From: Paenibacillus sp. 481 | GTDB lineage: Bacteria; Bacillota; Bacilli; Paenibacillales; Paenibacillaceae | Length of the DNA: 64,000 nt | Reading direction: 5' to 3' | NCBI RefSeq assembly: GCF_021223605.1 | Contig: NZ_CP075175.1 | Location: 1,387,001-1,451,000 of the forward strand | Part shown: positions 24,506 to 54,068 of the stretch, piece by piece | Layout of the letters: the number at the start of each line of letters is the position of its first letter | How positions within the stretch are numbered: position 1 is the stretch's first letter | The notes under the pieces: generated by a model | Database searches by the model: none | Told to the model about the DNA's origin: nothing | What the model saw: only the letters and a program-made list of their open reading frames with translations | Translations under genes and position numbers: made by a program

Positions 24506-25498
24506 TTAACGCGGCATTACAAAGCCCATGCGACGCTTCACTTCATCAAGCGTTTGTTGCGCAGCCGCTTGGGCACGCTCCGCGCCACTTTTCAATACAT
24601 CGTGCAGTTCGCCAGATTTGCGAACCTCGTGATAACGCGCTTGCAGCGGTTCAATGAATGATGCTACTTGCTCTGCCAAGTCCTTTTTAAATGGCCCGTA
24701 CATTTGGCCATCATATTTAGCTTCGATTTCAGCAATACTTAAGTCGGAAGTATGTGCATAAATGCTCATCAAGTTGCTAATTTCCGGCTTATTAATTGGA
24801 TCGTACTTAACGACAGCTTCCATATCCGTCTTCGCACGGCTAATCTTTTTGCGGATAACGGCTGGATCATCAAGTAAAGCGATCAAGCTGCCGGCAACCG
24901 CGCTGCTCTTGCTCATTTTTTTGGATGCATCGTCCAACGACATAATGCGCGCGCCTACTTCTGGAATGTATGGCTGCGGAACCGTGAAGAAGTCCCCGAA
25001 GCGATGATTGAAACGATTCGCCAAGTCGCGTGTCAATTCCAAGTGCTGCTTCTGGTCATCGCCAACCGGAATAAGGTCTGCGTTATAAATTAAAATATCA
25101 GCTGCCATGAGTGCCGGATATACGAACAAGCCTGCGCCAACCGAATCTTTGCCCTCTGACTTATCTTTAAACTGCGTCATGCGCTCCAACTCGCCCATAT
25201 AACTGATCGTCGTCATCAACCAGCCGAGTTCTGCGTGCTGTGGTACATGCGACTGCATAAAGATAGCTGCCTTGTTCGGATCAATACCTGCGGCAAGATA
25301 CAGGGCAGCAACTTGCTCTGACTGCTCATGCAAAGCTGCCGGCTCTTGCGCCACGGTTATAGCATGAAGGTCGACGATCATAAAAAAGCATTCATGGTCG
25401 TGCTGCAACTTCACAAAGTTCTGCATCGCTCCAATGTAATTACCAATCGTAAGCTGTCCACTTGGTTGAATACCAGACAATACTCTTTTCATGTTCAT
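24506..25498 (-). CDS. trpS: Tryptophanyl-tRNA synthetase
   Basis: A 330-aa class Ic aminoacyl-tRNA synthetase that charges tRNA-Trp with tryptophan. The HIGH-equivalent is TIGN at 17-20 within SGIQPSGQLTIGNY. KMSKS is at 194-198, and DDQKQHLELTRDLA is the usual conserved helix. ATG 25498 or ATG 25492 could start it; AAGGAG is 4 or 10 bases away respectively. It is expressed from a T-box leader with a Trp specifier codon, so uncharged tRNA-Trp should raise transcription. An unusual heptamer array lies between the T-box terminator and the ribosome site. Confidence 0.97.
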   Translation of the reverse strand: MNMKRVLSGIQPSGQLTIGNYIGAMQNFVKLQHDHECFFMIVDLHAITVAQEPAALHEQSEQVAALYLAAGIDPNKAAIFMQSHVPQHAELGWLMTTISYMGELERMTQFKDKSEGKDSVGAGLFVYPALMAADILIYNADLIPVGDDQKQHLELTRDLANRFNHRFGDFFTVPQPYIPEVGARIMSLDDASKKMSKSSAVAGSLIALLDDPAVIRKKISRAKTDMEAVVKYDPINKPEISNLMSIYAHTSDLSIAEIEAKYDGQMYGPFKKDLAEQVASFIEPLQARYHEVRKSGELHDVLKSGAERAQAAAQQTLDEVKRRMGFVMPR

Positions 25499-25778: not shown

Positions 25779-26136
25779 AAAAAAGGCCTCTCTCCCAAAA
25801 GGGACGAAAGACCGTGGTACCACCCTCATTTGCTCACAGAACCACTTCTACACATTGTACATGCATACGTACGTGCAGTAGGTTGCATCCCAATAAACAT
25901 TCATGCACACCTATTCTGTGAACCTCTAACCCTTTAACGCAGGGATACGGCTAACCATACTTGCATCGACAGCTCGTTCTCGTTCAACCTGAACAAACTT
26001 ACCGCTTGCGTTCCTGTTCGCACTCCAAGGTCCATTCAGTCTTCGTATCCGCACCGATTCGCACCATCCATCGGCTCTCTGCAGCATCAAGCGAAGCTTA
26101 CTTGTCCTTATCATCGTTTTCATTCGATTTGTGTTA
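25779..26136 (-). promoter_or_regulatory. T-box riboswitch, tryptophan-specific, controlling trpS
   Basis: On the minus strand a T-box leader can be followed end to end. Stem I has GATAAGGACAAG and GAGAGCCGATGG elements, and the specifier loop is GAATGGACC with codon TGG at 26034-26032. The conserved T-box AGGGTGGTACCACGG is at 25826-25812. The competing intrinsic terminator is at 25813-25779 (GGUCUUUC/GAGAGGCC stem and six U). Uncharged tRNA-Trp would pair at TGG and at the T-box bulge and block the terminator. Confidence 0.95.
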
Positions 26137-46204: not shown

Positions 46205-47761
46205 TTAGTCTCCATTCGTTTGCTCGTATGCACGTAGCAGTTCCTCTACAGGTATACCGTTAATTTTCATCCCCGAAATGTTGCACTGATCGATATTTAC
46301 GTTCGACAGATTGCTCCCGCGTATCTCCGTCCCACGTAGATCACATCTTTCAAATGTCATAGGCGTATGGGAGGCGCCTAGATTCGTATCGTGAAAGCGA
46401 ACCCCATCTAAAGAAACCAGCGCTATTTCACTATTGCTCAATCTCAAATCAGCAAGCAGGACGTTAGTGAGATTCATATTTTTAAATGTAGAGTGACTTA
46501 GATTGCAGTCCGTAAATTGGCTGCCGCTTAGATTGCTGTTGCTGTAACAGGCTTTTTCCACGTTCATTTTGTAAAAATCAGCCCCATTCATGGCGCAGCT
46601 CTCAAACTGCGTATGCGAAAGGTTCTGATCCTTAAATTTCGATGGAGCAGTAGCTGAATGCTCGACGTTTCCAGCCATTATTTTTTCGTACACGTACTCA
46701 TCCTCCGACTCATACGTCCGCACGTAGCCCGCTTTTTCATAGAAAAAATGATTGTTAATTTGCCTGCTCGACGTCTCCAATCTCCACTCTTCAACAGCTG
46801 GGAATTCACTTTCAATGAATGCAATGGCCTTGGAACCCAATCCTCGCCCCTGATAGCTCGGATCAATAAAGATCTTATCGAGTCTGGCATGTCTTTTGCC
46901 CGAAGATTCGACCGAGATGCCACCGATTATTGTTCCTTCTATTCCTCCTAATACAATCGCGTAATAATCCAATTCCCGAGTCAAGTACCTGTGCATTTCC
47001 AGCGAATCGTAGCCAGGCGGACGAAGGTTGCTGTCCGGGGCTCCATCACCTGTATGCCACTTCTGGATCTCCTGATCAAACGTCCTTTTCATCAAAGCTG
47101 AAAGTTGTGCAGCATCTTCAATTTGTGCTCTGCGAAACTGAATCATCATATTGTTGATGTCCCCTTCGGTTTCTTCCGTTTTTTCCGTTTCTTCTGTTTC
47201 TTCTGTCTCTTCGGCTTCGTGTGCTGTATGTTTTCTCATTTCAAAATAGTCGTATTCCTGCTGGTCTGCTAGCTTCGTTAGACGAATATGATCAAACCCC
47301 GCCTTTTCCACTACTCTTCGTGAAGCCACATTAAACGGTTTGACGATAGCAACAATTCGAGCAAGCTCTGTGTTGGCAAAGACAAATGAGGCGATCGCTC
47401 GAACTACGCTTGTCGTGTACCCCTGATTTCTGTAATCCTTTGAAATGGCATAAGCAACTTCTCGAGCTGCCGGATCTAATAAGTCATTTGGAAATACGCC
47501 ACACCAGCCAATGAGTCGCTTGTCCTCCTTGTGCTCCACCGCCAGTAAGATTTGCACATTGTGAGGATCAAACTTCTCGTAGCTGCCTACCACAAACGAT
47601 AAAAATTGCTCAAGCTGCTCCTCCGTCATGTTCCAATCCGGTAATATGTCCGTAATCTCTGATTGTCTTGTCAGTTGATGCAATTCTTCATAGTCGGCTG
47701 TTGAAAATGTCCGCAAACGGATTGAATCAGTGTCGATCGTGAATGTATGTGTATGGTTCAT
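46205..47761 (-). CDS. Tandem GNAT acetyltransferase fused to a pentapeptide-repeat domain
   Basis: A 518-aa three-part protein. Residues about 10-178 are a RimJ/L-type GNAT domain with the acetyl-CoA loop RNQGYTT (111-117). A Glu/Thr linker (about 182-200, TEETEE type) follows. Residues about 205-362 are a second GNAT with QGRGLGS (304-310). Residues about 375-500 are pentapeptide repeats (SNLSG, CNLSH, MNLTN, TNLGA, CDLRG, SNLSN) that should form a beta-helix. ATG 47761 follows AGAGGTG; the longer frame reaches 47833 through a terminator hairpin and is not used. Drug modification and pentapeptide target protection are both known resistance themes, so an antibiotic-resistance role is plausible but unproven. 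It is transcribed behind an attenuator-like leader. Confidence 0.85.
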   Translation of the reverse strand: MNHTHTFTIDTDSIRLRTFSTADYEELHQLTRQSEITDILPDWNMTEEQLEQFLSFVVGSYEKFDPHNVQILLAVEHKEDKRLIGWCGVFPNDLLDPAAREVAYAISKDYRNQGYTTSVVRAIASFVFANTELARIVAIVKPFNVASRRVVEKAGFDHIRLTKLADQQEYDYFEMRKHTAHEAEETEETEETEKTEETEGDINNMMIQFRRAQIEDAAQLSALMKRTFDQEIQKWHTGDGAPDSNLRPPGYDSLEMHRYLTRELDYYAIVLGGIEGTIIGGISVESSGKRHARLDKIFIDPSYQGRGLGSKAIAFIESEFPAVEEWRLETSSRQINNHFFYEKAGYVRTYESEDEYVYEKIMAGNVEHSATAPSKFKDQNLSHTQFESCAMNGADFYKMNVEKACYSNSNLSGSQFTDCNLSHSTFKNMNLTNVLLADLRLSNSEIALVSLDGVRFHDTNLGASHTPMTFERCDLRGTEIRGSNLSNVNIDQCNISGMKINGIPVEELLRAYEQTNGD

Positions 47762-47803: not shown

Positions 47804-47837
47804 AAAAAAAACGGAGTGCCTCAAAAAAGGCACTCCG
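47804..47837 (-). terminator. Intrinsic terminator between promoter and GNAT-fusion gene
   Basis: Exact nine-base arms CGGAGTGCC (47837-47829) and GGCACTCCG (47820-47812), an eight-base loop and eight T. It lies 42 bp upstream of the start codon and downstream of the promoter, so it can stop transcription before the gene. Confidence 0.92.
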
Positions 47838-47943
47838 CAAGTATAGGTACATACTTAGCCCGAAGTTCCTTGTAATGGGTCAAGAAGACACACGTATCCC
47901 GTTAACTAAATAGATAACGAAATTTAGGTGTTCTCTACGTCCA

Positions 47944-47961
47944 CTACAAGGATTCTGGCAT
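47944..47961 (-). CDS. Candidate leader peptide ORF (MPESL)
   Basis: Five codons, ATG CCA GAA TCC TTG then TAG, preceded by GGAAGGAG twelve bases upstream (a long spacing). Its last codons form the 5' arm of the leader stem. This position is what ribosome-mediated attenuation needs. The start could instead be a non-AUG codon in another frame. Confidence 0.4.
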   Translation of the reverse strand: MPESL

Positions 47962-47998
47962 AAGCTATGAATTCTCCTTCCAATATAAACCTATGTGT

Positions 47999-48027
47999 AT
48001 TTTAATCGATTGCTGGATTTTTGTAAA
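47999..48027 (-). promoter_or_regulatory. Sigma-A promoter of the GNAT-fusion leader
   Basis: -35 TTTACA (48027-48022), a 17-bp spacer, -10 TAAAAT (48004-47999). Transcription would start near 47993, giving a leader of about 230 nt to the start codon. Confidence 0.8.
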
Positions 48028-48045: not shown

Positions 48046-48927
48046 TTATGGCGATACTTGCGTATAATGCGCCACAACAAATTCACGAAACGCTTGGGCC
48101 GCAAGCGATAAATATTGTTTCTCTCGCCACACCAAGTGAGGTGTCCACTGACAAGCCGGCTCTTCAATATGAAGCAGATTAAGCGGCGGTATTTCGCGCT
48201 TGGCAGCTATCGGCAGAAACGCGACACCAAGACCCGCCCGAACCAAACTGCTAATAGCTGCGGGCTCGTCACCTTCGCAAATAATGTTCGGGATAAACCC
48301 CGCTCGATGACAACATTCATCAGTAATTTTACGGAAGCTATACCCTGCCTTCAAATTAATGAACGGGTCATTGGCCACTTCGCTAAGCCGAATACGGCTG
48401 CGGCCTGCAAGGCGATGTGTAGGTGGCACAGCCAGTACCATTTCTTCAGTCTGTAGTGGTAAATTAACGATTCCAGGTCGTTGAATAGATGCCGTGGCGA
48501 GACAGAAGTCGATTTCGCCTTTTTCGAGTAATTCAATCTTCATGTCCTCGGTAATGGCTTGCGTAATGCGAAAGTTCACGTGCGGATGCAAGGCTAAAAA
48601 AGGCCCTAAAAAATCAGCTACGCGATACAAGGTAGTTGTCGCCAGTAAAATACTCCCCCGCTCCAATCCCGCTAAATCCTCCAATTCGCGCCGACCTTCT
48701 TCCAGCTCCCCAAGCGCATTGTTCACCTTTTTGAGAAAAGCTTTGCCGAACACATTGAGCCGGATTTGTCGCCCGATCCGATCAAACAGCGGTACCCCTA
48801 AATCCTCTTCCAAACGTGCAATCATCACGCTGAGAGCTGGCTGGGCGATATGTAGCTCACGCGCTGCCTTGGTCATATGTTCGGTACGGGCAACGGTTTG
48901 AAAATATTTGAGTTGCAGCAAGTCCAT
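48046..48927 (-). CDS. LysR-family transcriptional regulator
   Basis: A 293-aa LTTR. The winged HTH is at residues 1-60 (LLQLKYFQTVARTEHMTKAARELHIAQPALSVMI, given in short form as its typical helix pattern). It is followed by the linker helix and a two-lobed effector domain with DFCLATA and GLGVAFLP. It is divergent from the arylamine N-acetyltransferase gene (172 bp between starts), the classic arrangement for a LysR regulator and its target. The inducer is unknown. Confidence 0.9.
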   Translation of the reverse strand: MDLLQLKYFQTVARTEHMTKAARELHIAQPALSVMIARLEEDLGVPLFDRIGRQIRLNVFGKAFLKKVNNALGELEEGRRELEDLAGLERGSILLATTTLYRVADFLGPFLALHPHVNFRITQAITEDMKIELLEKGEIDFCLATASIQRPGIVNLPLQTEEMVLAVPPTHRLAGRSRIRLSEVANDPFINLKAGYSFRKITDECCHRAGFIPNIICEGDEPAAISSLVRAGLGVAFLPIAAKREIPPLNLLHIEEPACQWTPHLVWREKQYLSLAAQAFREFVVAHYTQVSP

Positions 48928-49985: not shown

Positions 49986-51479
49986 CTAAATCAGGCAAGC
50001 CGGAACATAGCCTGGGTGCTGAAAATCAAACACTTGTATTGGACCTACAGCTGTTAAATGATGTCCAACAAAGACTGCTACGCTTATCGGACAGTTTAGA
50101 TATAAATCAATGTGTTCAATCCCTCGTTGTTTCAAATCATCCACAATGGCCTTCACTTTCACGGCATAAGCGACCGCCTGCTCTGCGCTTGCGATGCTAT
50201 CATGTCCTACTCCAGTCGGAGGAAGTACATTGATTAATGTATGGTATTGAACATTCGTTTGCTTCAAATGAGCATGCACTGGCTCTTTAATATCCCTAGT
50301 AACGCTAAGTACCAAAATAGCGCGTGAACTCTTTAAATCATTTCCTATCCATATGTCGGGCGACACTATAAACGAAGGATCAGACTTTAATGACGACCAA
50401 ATGTACTCCCCTTGCTCTATTTCAATAATTGCTCCTCTTACACGTGAAAATCTACTTCCAATTAGAACCCCACCAGACAAGCAAATCTTCGTGTATATGC
50501 GTATGTAACCTTGCGTAGCAGCTCGGTTCTGCGCCCAGTGATCAGCAGCACTCTCCAATGCTGTGGTCATCGCACTCCAATTCTCTCTAGAAGGCAGCTT
50601 CCTTGGTGAGGCATAGACACCAAAATATTCGCGCCAATCCAACTCGACTTGCGGTTGCTCCGCATACTGCTGTTTATCGTACCCGTGAATATGAAATATC
50701 ATAGGTGTAGGCTTTGTCGCCTGTGATTCCATCGTCTTTTGCACAAAATCACGAATCGTTTTGTATGCCGTACTACTAGGATCGGCCTTACAAATGCTTG
50801 AATGATCCTCATCAACATTCACAACATCTGCACCCAAATATAGCGGAGTGGAAGAAGCCTCTGCTACGACTCTATCCCGCGCTCCGCGCAGTGCAAGCTG
50901 TGAGATGTCGTGTTTCAACTTCTCGGGCAGCTTCTCTGTCCCGCCCCGATACACATACTTGTTCCAGCTAGCCTCTAATTGAGCCAAATGAGGGCTGTTT
51001 TTGCGCAACGATTGTAATTGGCGATTAACCGTCCATTTTGGAAAGACATTAGCCAGCCCAGATCCGTGGAAGGGAACAGATAAATAAACAGCACCCTTTA
51101 TTGATTTTAAGTTGTCCTCATCAAAATCTTCGTAACGATTCACAATATATTGCTGCACCACTAATCCACCCATACTGTGCGCTACGAAAACAATATCCTT
51201 TCCTTTTAAATCCACCTGAATATCCCCGTGTAGCAGCTCTGCTACCGTCTTGAAATCATATTGTAGCGGCTTAAAGCCTGTCCGATAACCATAACTGTAA
51301 ATCTCCGCATCAAGCAACGATGGATCTTGCCCGAGTAATTCCATCATGGTTGGGGATTGCTCACATTTCCTCCATGTGCCATGAGGGTCGCCCGCTAAAC
51401 CATGTACAAAAATAACCGCAAGCTTGCTTTTCGTCGATCGAGAAACTACTTTTATTAGCCTTGCTTTCTCTACGCCCAT
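49986..51479 (-). CDS. Alpha/beta-hydrolase (lipase-like) fused to a SAVED nucleotide-sensor domain
   Basis: A 497-aa two-domain protein. Residues about 18-250 form a PGAP1/LipA-like alpha/beta hydrolase: oxyanion segment FVHGLAGDPHGTW, nucleophile elbow AHSMGG (Ser102), a candidate acid Asp202 and His226 in DEDHSSICK. Residues about 265-497 match SAVED: WREYF, the SGGVLIGSRF and IIEIEQGEYIW strands, and the ending YLNCPISVAVFVGHHL ... PIQVFDF. SAVED binds cyclic oligonucleotides in CBASS effectors such as Cap4 and triggers the attached enzyme. The ATG is 15 bp after the DAC gene stop, with GAGGG eight bases upstream, so the pair is one operon. Predicted action: membrane-lipid or ester hydrolysis on nucleotide binding, causing abortive infection (inference). 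Confidence 0.85.
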   Translation of the reverse strand: MGVEKARLIKVVSRSTKSKLAVIFVHGLAGDPHGTWRKCEQSPTMMELLGQDPSLLDAEIYSYGYRTGFKPLQYDFKTVAELLHGDIQVDLKGKDIVFVAHSMGGLVVQQYIVNRYEDFDEDNLKSIKGAVYLSVPFHGSGLANVFPKWTVNRQLQSLRKNSPHLAQLEASWNKYVYRGGTEKLPEKLKHDISQLALRGARDRVVAEASSTPLYLGADVVNVDEDHSSICKADPSSTAYKTIRDFVQKTMESQATKPTPMIFHIHGYDKQQYAEQPQVELDWREYFGVYASPRKLPSRENWSAMTTALESAADHWAQNRAATQGYIRIYTKICLSGGVLIGSRFSRVRGAIIEIEQGEYIWSSLKSDPSFIVSPDIWIGNDLKSSRAILVLSVTRDIKEPVHAHLKQTNVQYHTLINVLPPTGVGHDSIASAEQAVAYAVKVKAIVDDLKQRGIEHIDLYLNCPISVAVFVGHHLTAVGPIQVFDFQHPGYVPACLI

Positions 51480-51494
51480 TATATTTTCCCTCGT

Positions 51495-54068
51495 TTACTC
51501 TTCGTCTTCTGGCTGTTGCTTCTCTAAACCAGCCGCTACTAAGGGATGGCTAGGATCCAATTTTGCACCATGTTCCTCTAGCAGCTTTTTAAGAGCCTCG
51601 CTATCGCGATGTTCACTTCTCTTTTCAAAGTAACTGTCTTGAGCATGGAAAAATAATGGGATGCCCTCTTTAATAAGCTCCGCTATTAAATCAATAGTAT
51701 ATTGTTGTGATTTTATTAATTCAGAATCTATATAATCATCAATAGCGGCCTTCCAATTTCCCATTGACTTGTATAAGTCACCTCGATTTTGATAGAGTAT
51801 ATGATTTCTAAAGAGCGAATCAATTTTCTGCATTTCTATTGATTTTGTAAAATCAGCCAATGCTCTGTTGAAGTAATCTTTCTTTGTAGCTCCTTTAGTC
51901 CCAATTCCAACTTCATAAAGTGAAATCCCGCGGATAGTATAAAGGCCAATAGTAATCTCCGATTCCGCACCGTGCTGGAATACATGTTCAATACCCTTCA
52001 AAGTTTTCATGTAATATTCATGCTTTTTTTCATCCTCGTCTTGAATACTTCTAGCATAATTTAAATATGATAAGACCAGAAGAAGATAATCTGAGGTATA
52101 TTTACTATTAACTTCATATCCCTTTTCGTAAAATTCGGCAGCCTGTAAATATCGTGATTTTACATAGAAGGTAAATGCGAGCTTGAAATAGTGTTGAGGA
52201 TCGATTTCTGTCTCCTTTGCAAATTGTTGAAGTTGCTTCTCGCAATCTTGCAGCTTTTCTTCACTATCTTCATTATCATCTTTGATGTGAGTAATCATAT
52301 CCCCAACCAATTGCCGAATAACAGCTTCATTTACACGCTCTGGAATCAGATTGACCATCCCATCCTCGGAAATGATCGCAATAACGCAAGGCTTGTTACG
52401 ATCTTTTAGTTTTTTTAAATAACGATATGCAGAATGAAACCTCGCACCACGACTTGCATCTCCTAGACTCTCATGTGCAAGCCCATCAAGAATCACGCCA
52501 ATAGCATGACAAGATCCAGTGGTATCAAAATAAATCGCACCGTCAATAGATGTAAGGTGTTTAATAAATGTCGGGCTTATTTCCGTCGGAAAAATTGGTG
52601 TAGACTGTTTTTGCAGCTTTTTCAACTCAGCTTCCGCAGTTTCAGGGTCTGTAATTACCACCATTGTACCGCTTTGCTGTTCAGTCGCTTTCTTAATGAC
52701 AAGCCCCAGTTTTTCAATTTGTTCATCTGTAACAGTGATAGACTCCGCGTTCTTAAATTGGCCCCTCATTGTTCGTTTAAACAGTTCAGATGTGAAGCCT
52801 CCTGACGCAATTACTGGGTTTTTAAATGATATACCTATTAACTTCTGAGGCACAATTTCTAAATTAGTGGTCATTTTAAATATCCTTGATTCATCTTCAG
52901 CAACAACACGAGCATCTGTACTTGGCTTTTCCTCAGTTGTTATAAGTAGCAAATCATATTTGGATAATCCCTTAAACTCTACTTTGAACACGAGATTATT
53001 GGCTAACTCGCTCCAGTTGATTGTCCCTACTCCATAAATGCCTTTGTCATCTGCAATCAAGTACAAATCGCTCTCATTGTTCGTAAGCTCAAGAAGCTTT
53101 CGGATGCGTCGGGCATCCTCTAATTGAATAGGTTGATGATTTTGAAACTTAATCGAGAAATGAATGAGATCACTGTTTGCCAGCAAATTCTCATTTATAA
53201 TTAACATACACCCAAAGGGGCTCTCACCCTCATACGTTCTTGTTGAAATGCCATCGATTTTTTCAAGCAAGTTGTTTATATAATTCTGGTTTCTCACCCT
53301 TTCCGATAAATCAATGTAATGACCAGAGACATTGCTTAAACTTTGCTCACATATGATAAACTCCTGAATTTTCCCAAAAAATAAACGGGCCATTCGCTGA
53401 AGGAACTGAGCACTATTTTCTTTATACTTGCTTTCAAGTTCAGTATCTTCATTAAGAAATAATAAATCGTTATCGCGAAATACCGTGTAGTAGTCTAGAA
53501 AATAATAATCTAGGACCATTCTAATAAAGGACATTTGTGGTCTTTCAAGAAAAATATTTCTTGTATTAGCATCGACATACTCAATTGATAGAATGTATTT
53601 CATCTGAGAAATTTCTTTATCTTGCTTAATAATAAAGGAGTTAGTGTATAAAATATTCCACTCATAAAAGTCTTGTTTAATCGGAGAAACATAATTTTTC
53701 CCCAAATCAACTCGATTCTCTAGGGCAGCTTCATCAGGTACACTAGAATTTTGACTTATTTCAGATGACTGAATTACTTCAAGCTCAACTTGACTTATAT
53801 CTGTATTCAGATTCTTCAGGGGGAGGCCAAGTTTTTTGAAAACCTCATCGGGTTCCTTAAATTCTTCTTGAATGACCTTCGTGTTTCGGCCACCTTCACC
53901 GCTTAACACACTTTTGACCCGAAGTGTTTTAATACAATTTCTCTTCTCATCTAATACGAGTGCATACAATTTCAAATCCAATCTATCATCAAGATTACGC
54001 AAAATTTGCTCCAGATTTCCATATACCGTCTTATTTATTTGTTCAAACTCCTTCAAAAAACCTACCAT
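51495..54068 (-). CDS. DAC (diadenylate cyclase)-domain protein with N-terminal sensor region and TPR tail
   Basis: An 857-aa protein. Residues 1-400 are an unrecognised, probably sensory region. Residues about 420-590 read as a DisA_N-type cyclase domain: TMVVITDP, the DGA motif at 509-511 (SIDGAIYFD), a GARFHSAYRY block at 541-550 where DisA has GTRHRTA, and AIISEDGMVNLIP. Residues about 620-800 are TPR-like. The RHR triplet of DisA/CdaA is RFH here, as expected of the divergent, sensor-linked DAC proteins. The likely role is making c-di-AMP or a related cyclic nucleotide that the SAVED partner senses. The gene looks more AT-rich than flanking core genes, suggesting transfer. ATG 54068 lies tight against AAAGG, so TTG 54056 is a possible alternative start. 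Confidence 0.8.
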   Translation of the reverse strand: MVGFLKEFEQINKTVYGNLEQILRNLDDRLDLKLYALVLDEKRNCIKTLRVKSVLSGEGGRNTKVIQEEFKEPDEVFKKLGLPLKNLNTDISQVELEVIQSSEISQNSSVPDEAALENRVDLGKNYVSPIKQDFYEWNILYTNSFIIKQDKEISQMKYILSIEYVDANTRNIFLERPQMSFIRMVLDYYFLDYYTVFRDNDLLFLNEDTELESKYKENSAQFLQRMARLFFGKIQEFIICEQSLSNVSGHYIDLSERVRNQNYINNLLEKIDGISTRTYEGESPFGCMLIINENLLANSDLIHFSIKFQNHQPIQLEDARRIRKLLELTNNESDLYLIADDKGIYGVGTINWSELANNLVFKVEFKGLSKYDLLLITTEEKPSTDARVVAEDESRIFKMTTNLEIVPQKLIGISFKNPVIASGGFTSELFKRTMRGQFKNAESITVTDEQIEKLGLVIKKATEQQSGTMVVITDPETAEAELKKLQKQSTPIFPTEISPTFIKHLTSIDGAIYFDTTGSCHAIGVILDGLAHESLGDASRGARFHSAYRYLKKLKDRNKPCVIAIISEDGMVNLIPERVNEAVIRQLVGDMITHIKDDNEDSEEKLQDCEKQLQQFAKETEIDPQHYFKLAFTFYVKSRYLQAAEFYEKGYEVNSKYTSDYLLLVLSYLNYARSIQDEDEKKHEYYMKTLKGIEHVFQHGAESEITIGLYTIRGISLYEVGIGTKGATKKDYFNRALADFTKSIEMQKIDSLFRNHILYQNRGDLYKSMGNWKAAIDDYIDSELIKSQQYTIDLIAELIKEGIPLFFHAQDSYFEKRSEHRDSEALKKLLEEHGAKLDPSHPLVAAGLEKQQPEDEE

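Follow-up and report, generated by a model that had tools for sequence, protein, structure and literature searches.

The window, by which we mean the whole 64,000-nucleotide stretch of Paenibacillus sp. 481 DNA that was analysed, carries a gene for a protein with two GNAT acetyltransferase domains and pentapeptide repeats (Acetyltransf_3, 6e-28; Acetyltransf_1, 4e-22; Pentapeptide_4, 6e-18), and in front of this gene lies a leader whose parts are collected in Table 1. A preliminary description of this DNA had read here a promoter, a short ORF (MPESL), an anti-antiterminator of 12 bp that uses the last ORF codons as its 5' arm, an 11-nt segment for which the terminator 5' half is an alternative partner, and a T8 terminator 42 bp before the start codon; we found all of these elements where it had placed them, on the minus strand, the alternative pairing with one mismatch and a computed duplex energy of -12.2 kcal/mol (AAGGAACTTCG/CGGAGTGCCTT).

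Table 1. Parts of the leader before the GNAT-GNAT-pentapeptide gene (window positions) and its other copies in the host genome (genome positions).
Feature	Position	Strand	Remark
Leader site	between LysR-type gene 48046-48927 and GNAT-GNAT-pentapeptide gene 46205-47761	-	
Promoter-like TTTACA-17-TAAAAT	48027-47999	-	10/12 consensus match
Leader Shine-Dalgarno GGAAGGAG	47981-47974	-	kept among leaders
Leader ORF ATG CCA GAA TCC TTG TAG (MPESL)	47961-47944	-	homologous ORFs have 4-6 codons
Anti-antiterminator stem, 5' arm TCCTTGTAGTGG	47952-47941	-	overlaps codons 4-5 and stop
Apical part of hairpin	47940-47879	-	variable in length and sequence
Anti-antiterminator stem, 3' arm CCATTACAAGGA	47878-47867	-	12-bp stem with TCCTTGTAGTGG
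Antiterminator segment AAGGAACTTCG, 11 nt	47871-47861	-	overlaps 3' arm of the stem
Antiterminator partner CGGAGTGCCTT, the terminator 5' half	47837-47827	-	pairs with AAGGAACTTCG, one mismatch
Intrinsic terminator hairpin	47838-47811	-	
Terminator T8 tract	47811-47804	-	42 nt upstream of main-gene ATG (47761)
Main-gene Shine-Dalgarno AGAGGTG	47775-47769	-	
Regulated gene, 518-aa GNAT-GNAT-pentapeptide-repeat protein	46205-47761	-	
L098	G000:C1:2252550-2252712		before SDR oxidoreductase
L239	G000:C1:1478773-1478952		before P-loop protein of unknown function
L238, fourth copy	G000:C1:5482959-5483103		stop TAA changed to TCA; GNAT pseudogene downstream

Two other parts of the window deserve mention in their own right. 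A two-gene unit (49986-54068, minus strand) encodes an 857-residue protein with a DACNH sensor, a DisA-type diadenylate cyclase (DAC) and TPRs, together with a 497-residue alpha/beta-hydrolase-SAVED protein; it looks like a CBASS-like defence system, one that would employ a DAC enzyme. A T-box leader (RF00230, 105 bits; 25797-26123, minus strand) precedes a tryptophanyl-tRNA synthetase-like gene (24506-25498), and a tandem repeat of the CGCACAACGCACAG type lies between the two.

Could the leader be an accident of base composition? Its fold has a z-score of -6.6, and none of 200 shuffles is equally stable. Taken alone, the terminator and promoter motifs occur no more often than in shuffles; across 36 non-redundant leaders, a promoter motif with at least 9 of 12 matches stands upstream in 75%, as against 16% of mononucleotide shuffles. 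The anatomy of the leader is not due to chance, as its conservation, its in-frame ORF, its covariation and the computed switch show, and it is to these that we now turn.

Within the genus, a DNA search yielded two full-length leaders with 73-74% identity: the first precedes a GNAT-GNAT gene that lacks pentapeptide repeats, the second a broken copy. The sole full-length relative of the protein that a scan of genome contigs found, in Paenibacillus kobensis, is preceded by the same leader, its stem and peptide having diverged; a plasmid search gave no full-length relative. A covariance model of these four leaders (R1: the window, the two genus leaders and P. kobensis), trained on leaders of GNAT genes only, matches 92 of 396 genomes of the host's family at E <= 0.01 and further families of the order, and it picks up leaders of SDR oxidoreductase, FusB-like, ABC exporter and hydrolase genes with E-values of 1e-7 to 1e-20, which, like all E-values from these models, are rough because the calibrations were short. 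A second model (R2, 22 diverse leaders, cut-off E <= 0.001) matches 134 of the 396 family genomes, in 12 of 19 genera, and 57 of 399 genomes drawn evenly from the host's class, in 29 of 146 genera, the weakest of these matches (L209-L211) being doubtful; additionally, it recovers leaders of APH-like and zinc-ribbon/S4 genes, both of which were absent from its training set. We judged L209-L211 (E about 5e-5 to 6e-4) to be chance matches, took plus-strand matches at the same loci for the mirror image of near-palindromic stems, and set aside an alignment fitted to the covariance model (A3) as too gappy. In Rfam 15 no family reaches its gathering threshold for the window leader or for 20 homologous loci; the IS102, suhB and P31 matches at a lax threshold are all sub-threshold and were taken as chance. 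A search of the open-access literature found no published description of the leader family, which is separate from the vmlR attenuator and apparently undescribed so far.

This distribution bears on the plainest of the alternatives, namely that the structure is an accident around the terminator of the upstream LysR-type gene. The terminator does lie 3' of the LysR-type gene, and in relatives an unrelated gene ends in similar CGGAGTGCC hairpins, but those other hairpins come without the leader, whereas the leader is kept in its entirety ahead of acetyltransferase genes in other genomes and ahead of unrelated genes. Whole-leader conservation rules out a plain LysR-gene terminator, and we give this reading next to no credence. 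The CGGAGTGCC hairpins of L007-L011, which had seemed to be relatives, are in fact ordinary terminators after a membrane-protein gene.

A four- to six-codon ORF with a Shine-Dalgarno sequence is found in 72 of 73 first-round leaders, the remaining one reading AUG-UAA; the 60 loci of the second round comprise the three chance matches, one decayed leader (L238), one with an eight-codon ORF in a different frame (L187) and, for the rest, leaders with a short ORF. The encoded peptides include MPESL, MPVTL, MPDFS, MAGTL, MGDIL, MWTSL, MWNTLK, MPTTTL and VAVVCL, for which the usual pattern is M-P/W/A/G-x-x-Leu-stop. Among the 36 non-redundant leaders, the ORF is 4, 5 or 6 codons long and starts with ATG (34), GTG (1) or TTG (1); its last residue (for MWNTLK-type ORFs, the residue that precedes the additional Lys) is leucine in 31 (TTG 23, CTG 4, CTT 4), with Thr or Ser before it in 20. 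The leucine bias is in part imposed by pairing with the 3' arm. The Thr/Ser-Leu-stop ending resembles contexts reported for phenicols and oxazolidinones, a resemblance that we treat as a lead only. An ORF shrunk to start and stop alone (AUG-UAA) is seen in L101 (leader at locus 501-656), before an SDR gene, and constitutes a natural test of how important the peptide is.

Since ORF length shifts in whole codons and starts are confined to ATG, GTG and TTG, the ORF is probably translated. The same observations, and the persistence of the reading frame, speak against the view that the leader is a riboswitch or binds a protein and that its ORF is incidental. Such a leader would account for the strong conserved structure with its apical domain; in the leaders of RimJ-type GNAT genes, however, that domain is reduced to some 17-26 nt, and there is no Rfam match among the loci searched, such that we regard this alternative as very improbable. 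A third alternative is an amino-acid attenuator that senses scarce charged tRNA for leucine, proline or tryptophan. It could appeal to the usual leucine at the last codon and to the frequent proline or tryptophan at codon 2, but codon 2 varies (Pro, Trp, Ala, Gly, Arg, Cys), and both hallmarks of amino-acid leaders, repeated codons for the sensed residue and a matching pathway gene, are absent: the leader ORFs hold no codon runs, and no gene of leucine, proline or tryptophan biosynthesis is among the downstream genes found. Its probability is, in our estimate, a shade lower still than that of an incidental ORF.

The preliminary description had proposed RNA folding with covariation across homologous leaders as a check, and had held that a lack of conservation of the alternative stems would speak against an attenuator. 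With the check carried out, dozens of leaders show conservation and covariation of the stem, the antiterminator and the terminator. In the stem that contains the ORF, 93% of cells are paired, and at 6 of the 11 pairs both sides have changed somewhere. Terminators differ between groups (GCGGAGTGCC, GCGGACACC, GCGAATACC, TGCAGTTACC, GCGGCGAATCC); the antiterminator segment, which overlaps the 3' arm, varies in step with them. In 25 leaders, the antiterminator pairs with its own terminator at -12.9 kcal/mol on average and with swapped terminators at -10.2, a difference that 0 of 20,000 permutations reached; in just over half of the 25, no other segment of the leader pairs better with the terminator, and the median fraction of better segments is 0. 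The antiterminator is mutually exclusive with both the anti-antiterminator stem and the terminator.

We modelled the switch by folding the RNA as far as the terminator loop and representing a ribosome by hiding the RNA up to AUG+15, the 3' arm being set by hand from the conserved motif in 14 leaders. With this crude stand-in, which is an RNA deletion and not a co-transcriptional simulation, the expected number of antiterminator pairs in the 36 non-redundant leaders rises from 1.7 in the free RNA to 10.2 with a ribosome at the AUG and 9.4 with one at the last codon. All 36 gain more than two pairs with the ribosome at the AUG and are thus predicted to flip on ORF occupancy; for shuffled leaders, the mean gain is 0.15 pairs. 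The gain increases as the mask moves across the ORF, with its maximum at AUG+15, and the window leader goes from 2.3 to 12.3 pairs.

From sequence and computation, that is, from anatomy, conservation, the in-frame ORF, covariation and the predicted occupancy-driven switch, we conclude that the leader is very probably a ribosome-mediated transcription attenuator, in which ORF translation, real switching and antibiotic induction are the steps that we infer. By default, a ribosome would translate MPESL fast and depart, or none would load; the 5' arm, together with the leader ORF, would then pair with the 3' arm and mask the antiterminator segment, the terminator would form, and transcription would end 42 nt before the GNAT-GNAT-pentapeptide gene. 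Under induction, a ribosome stalled on the five-codon ORF would cover the 5' arm, and the freed AAGGAACTTCG would pair with the terminator 5' half, allowing RNA polymerase to read into the gene.

What genes are controlled in this way, and what signal would open the switch? Of 124 tallied leaders from both rounds, 120 precede genes whose products fall into twelve groups: SDR oxidoreductases (35), window-type GNATs (27), RimJ-type GNATs (16), zinc-ribbon/S4 proteins (12), APH-like kinases (7), Eis-type GNATs (6), serine hydrolases (6), FusB-like proteins (5), ABC exporters (2), DUF1062 proteins (2), an M29 peptidase (1) and a P-loop protein (1). The FusB-like group is of the EF-G-binding kind (NCBIfam fusF, 5e-32; Pfam EF-G-binding_N, 1e-17), the kinases match APH (3.5e-15), the zinc-ribbon proteins match S4 (6e-8), and an exporter is like drrA (5e-62), under the NCBIfam cut-off for that name. 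No ABC-F gene is among the downstream groups found. The zinc-ribbon proteins that follow L181-L184, L188, L191-L193, L204, L206, L207 and L212 probably carry an S4-type RNA-binding domain at the C-terminus; they are candidate ribosome-binding protection factors, and the open-access literature yielded no study of them.

Homology of the leader, with E-values down to 1e-20, before proteins that are not homologous means that the leader was duplicated or passed from one gene to another. The host genome itself holds three apparently intact copies, those of the window, L098 and L239. In a fourth, L238, leader and GNAT gene have both decayed, as expected if selection maintains leader and gene jointly.

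That the inducer would be a ribosome-targeting drug is well motivated by vmlR, by the other very short uORFs that precede ABC-F genes and by the genes behind the leaders, of which FusB-type EF-G-binding proteins, APH-like kinases, GNATs and an exporter point to translation inhibitors. The main competing view is a sensor of translation state that is not specific to drugs, in which any slowing of ribosomes on the mini-ORF, through stress at initiation, elongation or termination or through starvation, opens the switch before general stress enzymes. Very different genes behind the same leader, SDR oxidoreductases and a peptidase included, would suit such a sensor, as would the idea that very short uORFs stall ribosomes with little sequence context (PMC10201436). 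We nonetheless find it rather unlikely, as the FusB-like EF-G-binding, APH-like kinase and zinc-ribbon/S4 groups look specific to translation inhibitors, and the M-x-x-x-Leu-stop pattern is maintained with synonymous leucine codons.

Standing, as it does in many Bacilli, before ten or more unrelated kinds of enzyme and ribosome-protection genes, the leader may flag many antibiotic-response genes that have yet to be described. A bolder proposal, which we put forward tentatively and at somewhat less than even confidence, is that one homologous attenuator family with a conserved, five-codon M-x-x-T/S-Leu-stop sensor joins ten or more unrelated gene families into a resistance regulon that spans the Bacilli and is T-box-like; the uORF would encode an arrest peptide specific to a drug class that has no matched leader, with arrest perhaps at the stop codon or close to it, and the uncharacterised genes that follow (those of zinc-ribbon/S4 proteins, SDRs and RimJ-type GNATs) would be new resistance or ribosome-protection factors. 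Should the inducer be identified, the leader would provide a sequence tag for intrinsic resistance genes of Bacilli that await description. The leaders would also be a natural set of minimal arrest peptides, usually of four to six codons, with which to ask how stalling depends on drug and sequence.

The layout was originally likened to those ahead of vmlR, bmrCD and erm/cat genes, and these parallels differ in closeness. In erm/cat leaders, a drug-stalled ribosome rearranges stems and mostly frees the main-gene Shine-Dalgarno sequence, and the arrest peptides are longer; erm control being mainly translational, whereas antitermination is proposed here, the analogy is a loose one. It is also loose for bmrB-bmrCD, where 50S inhibitors bring about ribosome-mediated transcription attenuation through a 53-residue leader peptide whose coding region holds both the stem-loops and the terminator (PMC4191407). 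The new leader lacks this feature, as over 100 nt separate the end of its ORF (47944) from the terminator. The close mechanistic match is the vmlR leader of Bacillus subtilis, for which uORF translation and lincomycin induction were shown experimentally (PMC9226507). Both leaders have a very short uORF with its own Shine-Dalgarno sequence within an anti-antiterminator hairpin, an overlapping, doubly exclusive antiterminator and a terminator before the gene, which would place the new family in the uORF-attenuator class; stalling on the vmlR uORF gives read-through, and the same step is what we infer here. Unlike the M-P/W/A/G-x-x-Leu peptides of the new family, the vmlR uORF is MIN, with variants MDN, MDK and MRK, the main-gene Shine-Dalgarno sequence is also sequestered (PMC9226507), and the vmlR gene encodes an ABC-F ATPase. 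Uorfs of three to four codons steer cplR, vmlR2 and lsaA by attenuation as well, with the consensus MR[I/M], MK[L/Q] and MAGN, each before an ABC-F resistance gene (PMC10201436). The new leaders stand outside this vmlR/cplR/vmlR2/lsaA group in both downstream gene and uORF consensus, the likeness of MAGN in lsaA to MAGTL of SDR leaders being superficial only. Known uORF attenuators have mostly been described gene by gene, often before ABC-F genes; here, a single leader family, with a covariance model of its own, is common to many unrelated genes. In this it is like the T-box (RF00230), which is also one leader family before many genes with alternative terminator and antiterminator. The T-box senses uncharged tRNA directly and needs no ORF, and the new leader fails the RF00230 model; in distribution, however, it resembles T-boxes more than it does one-gene attenuators.
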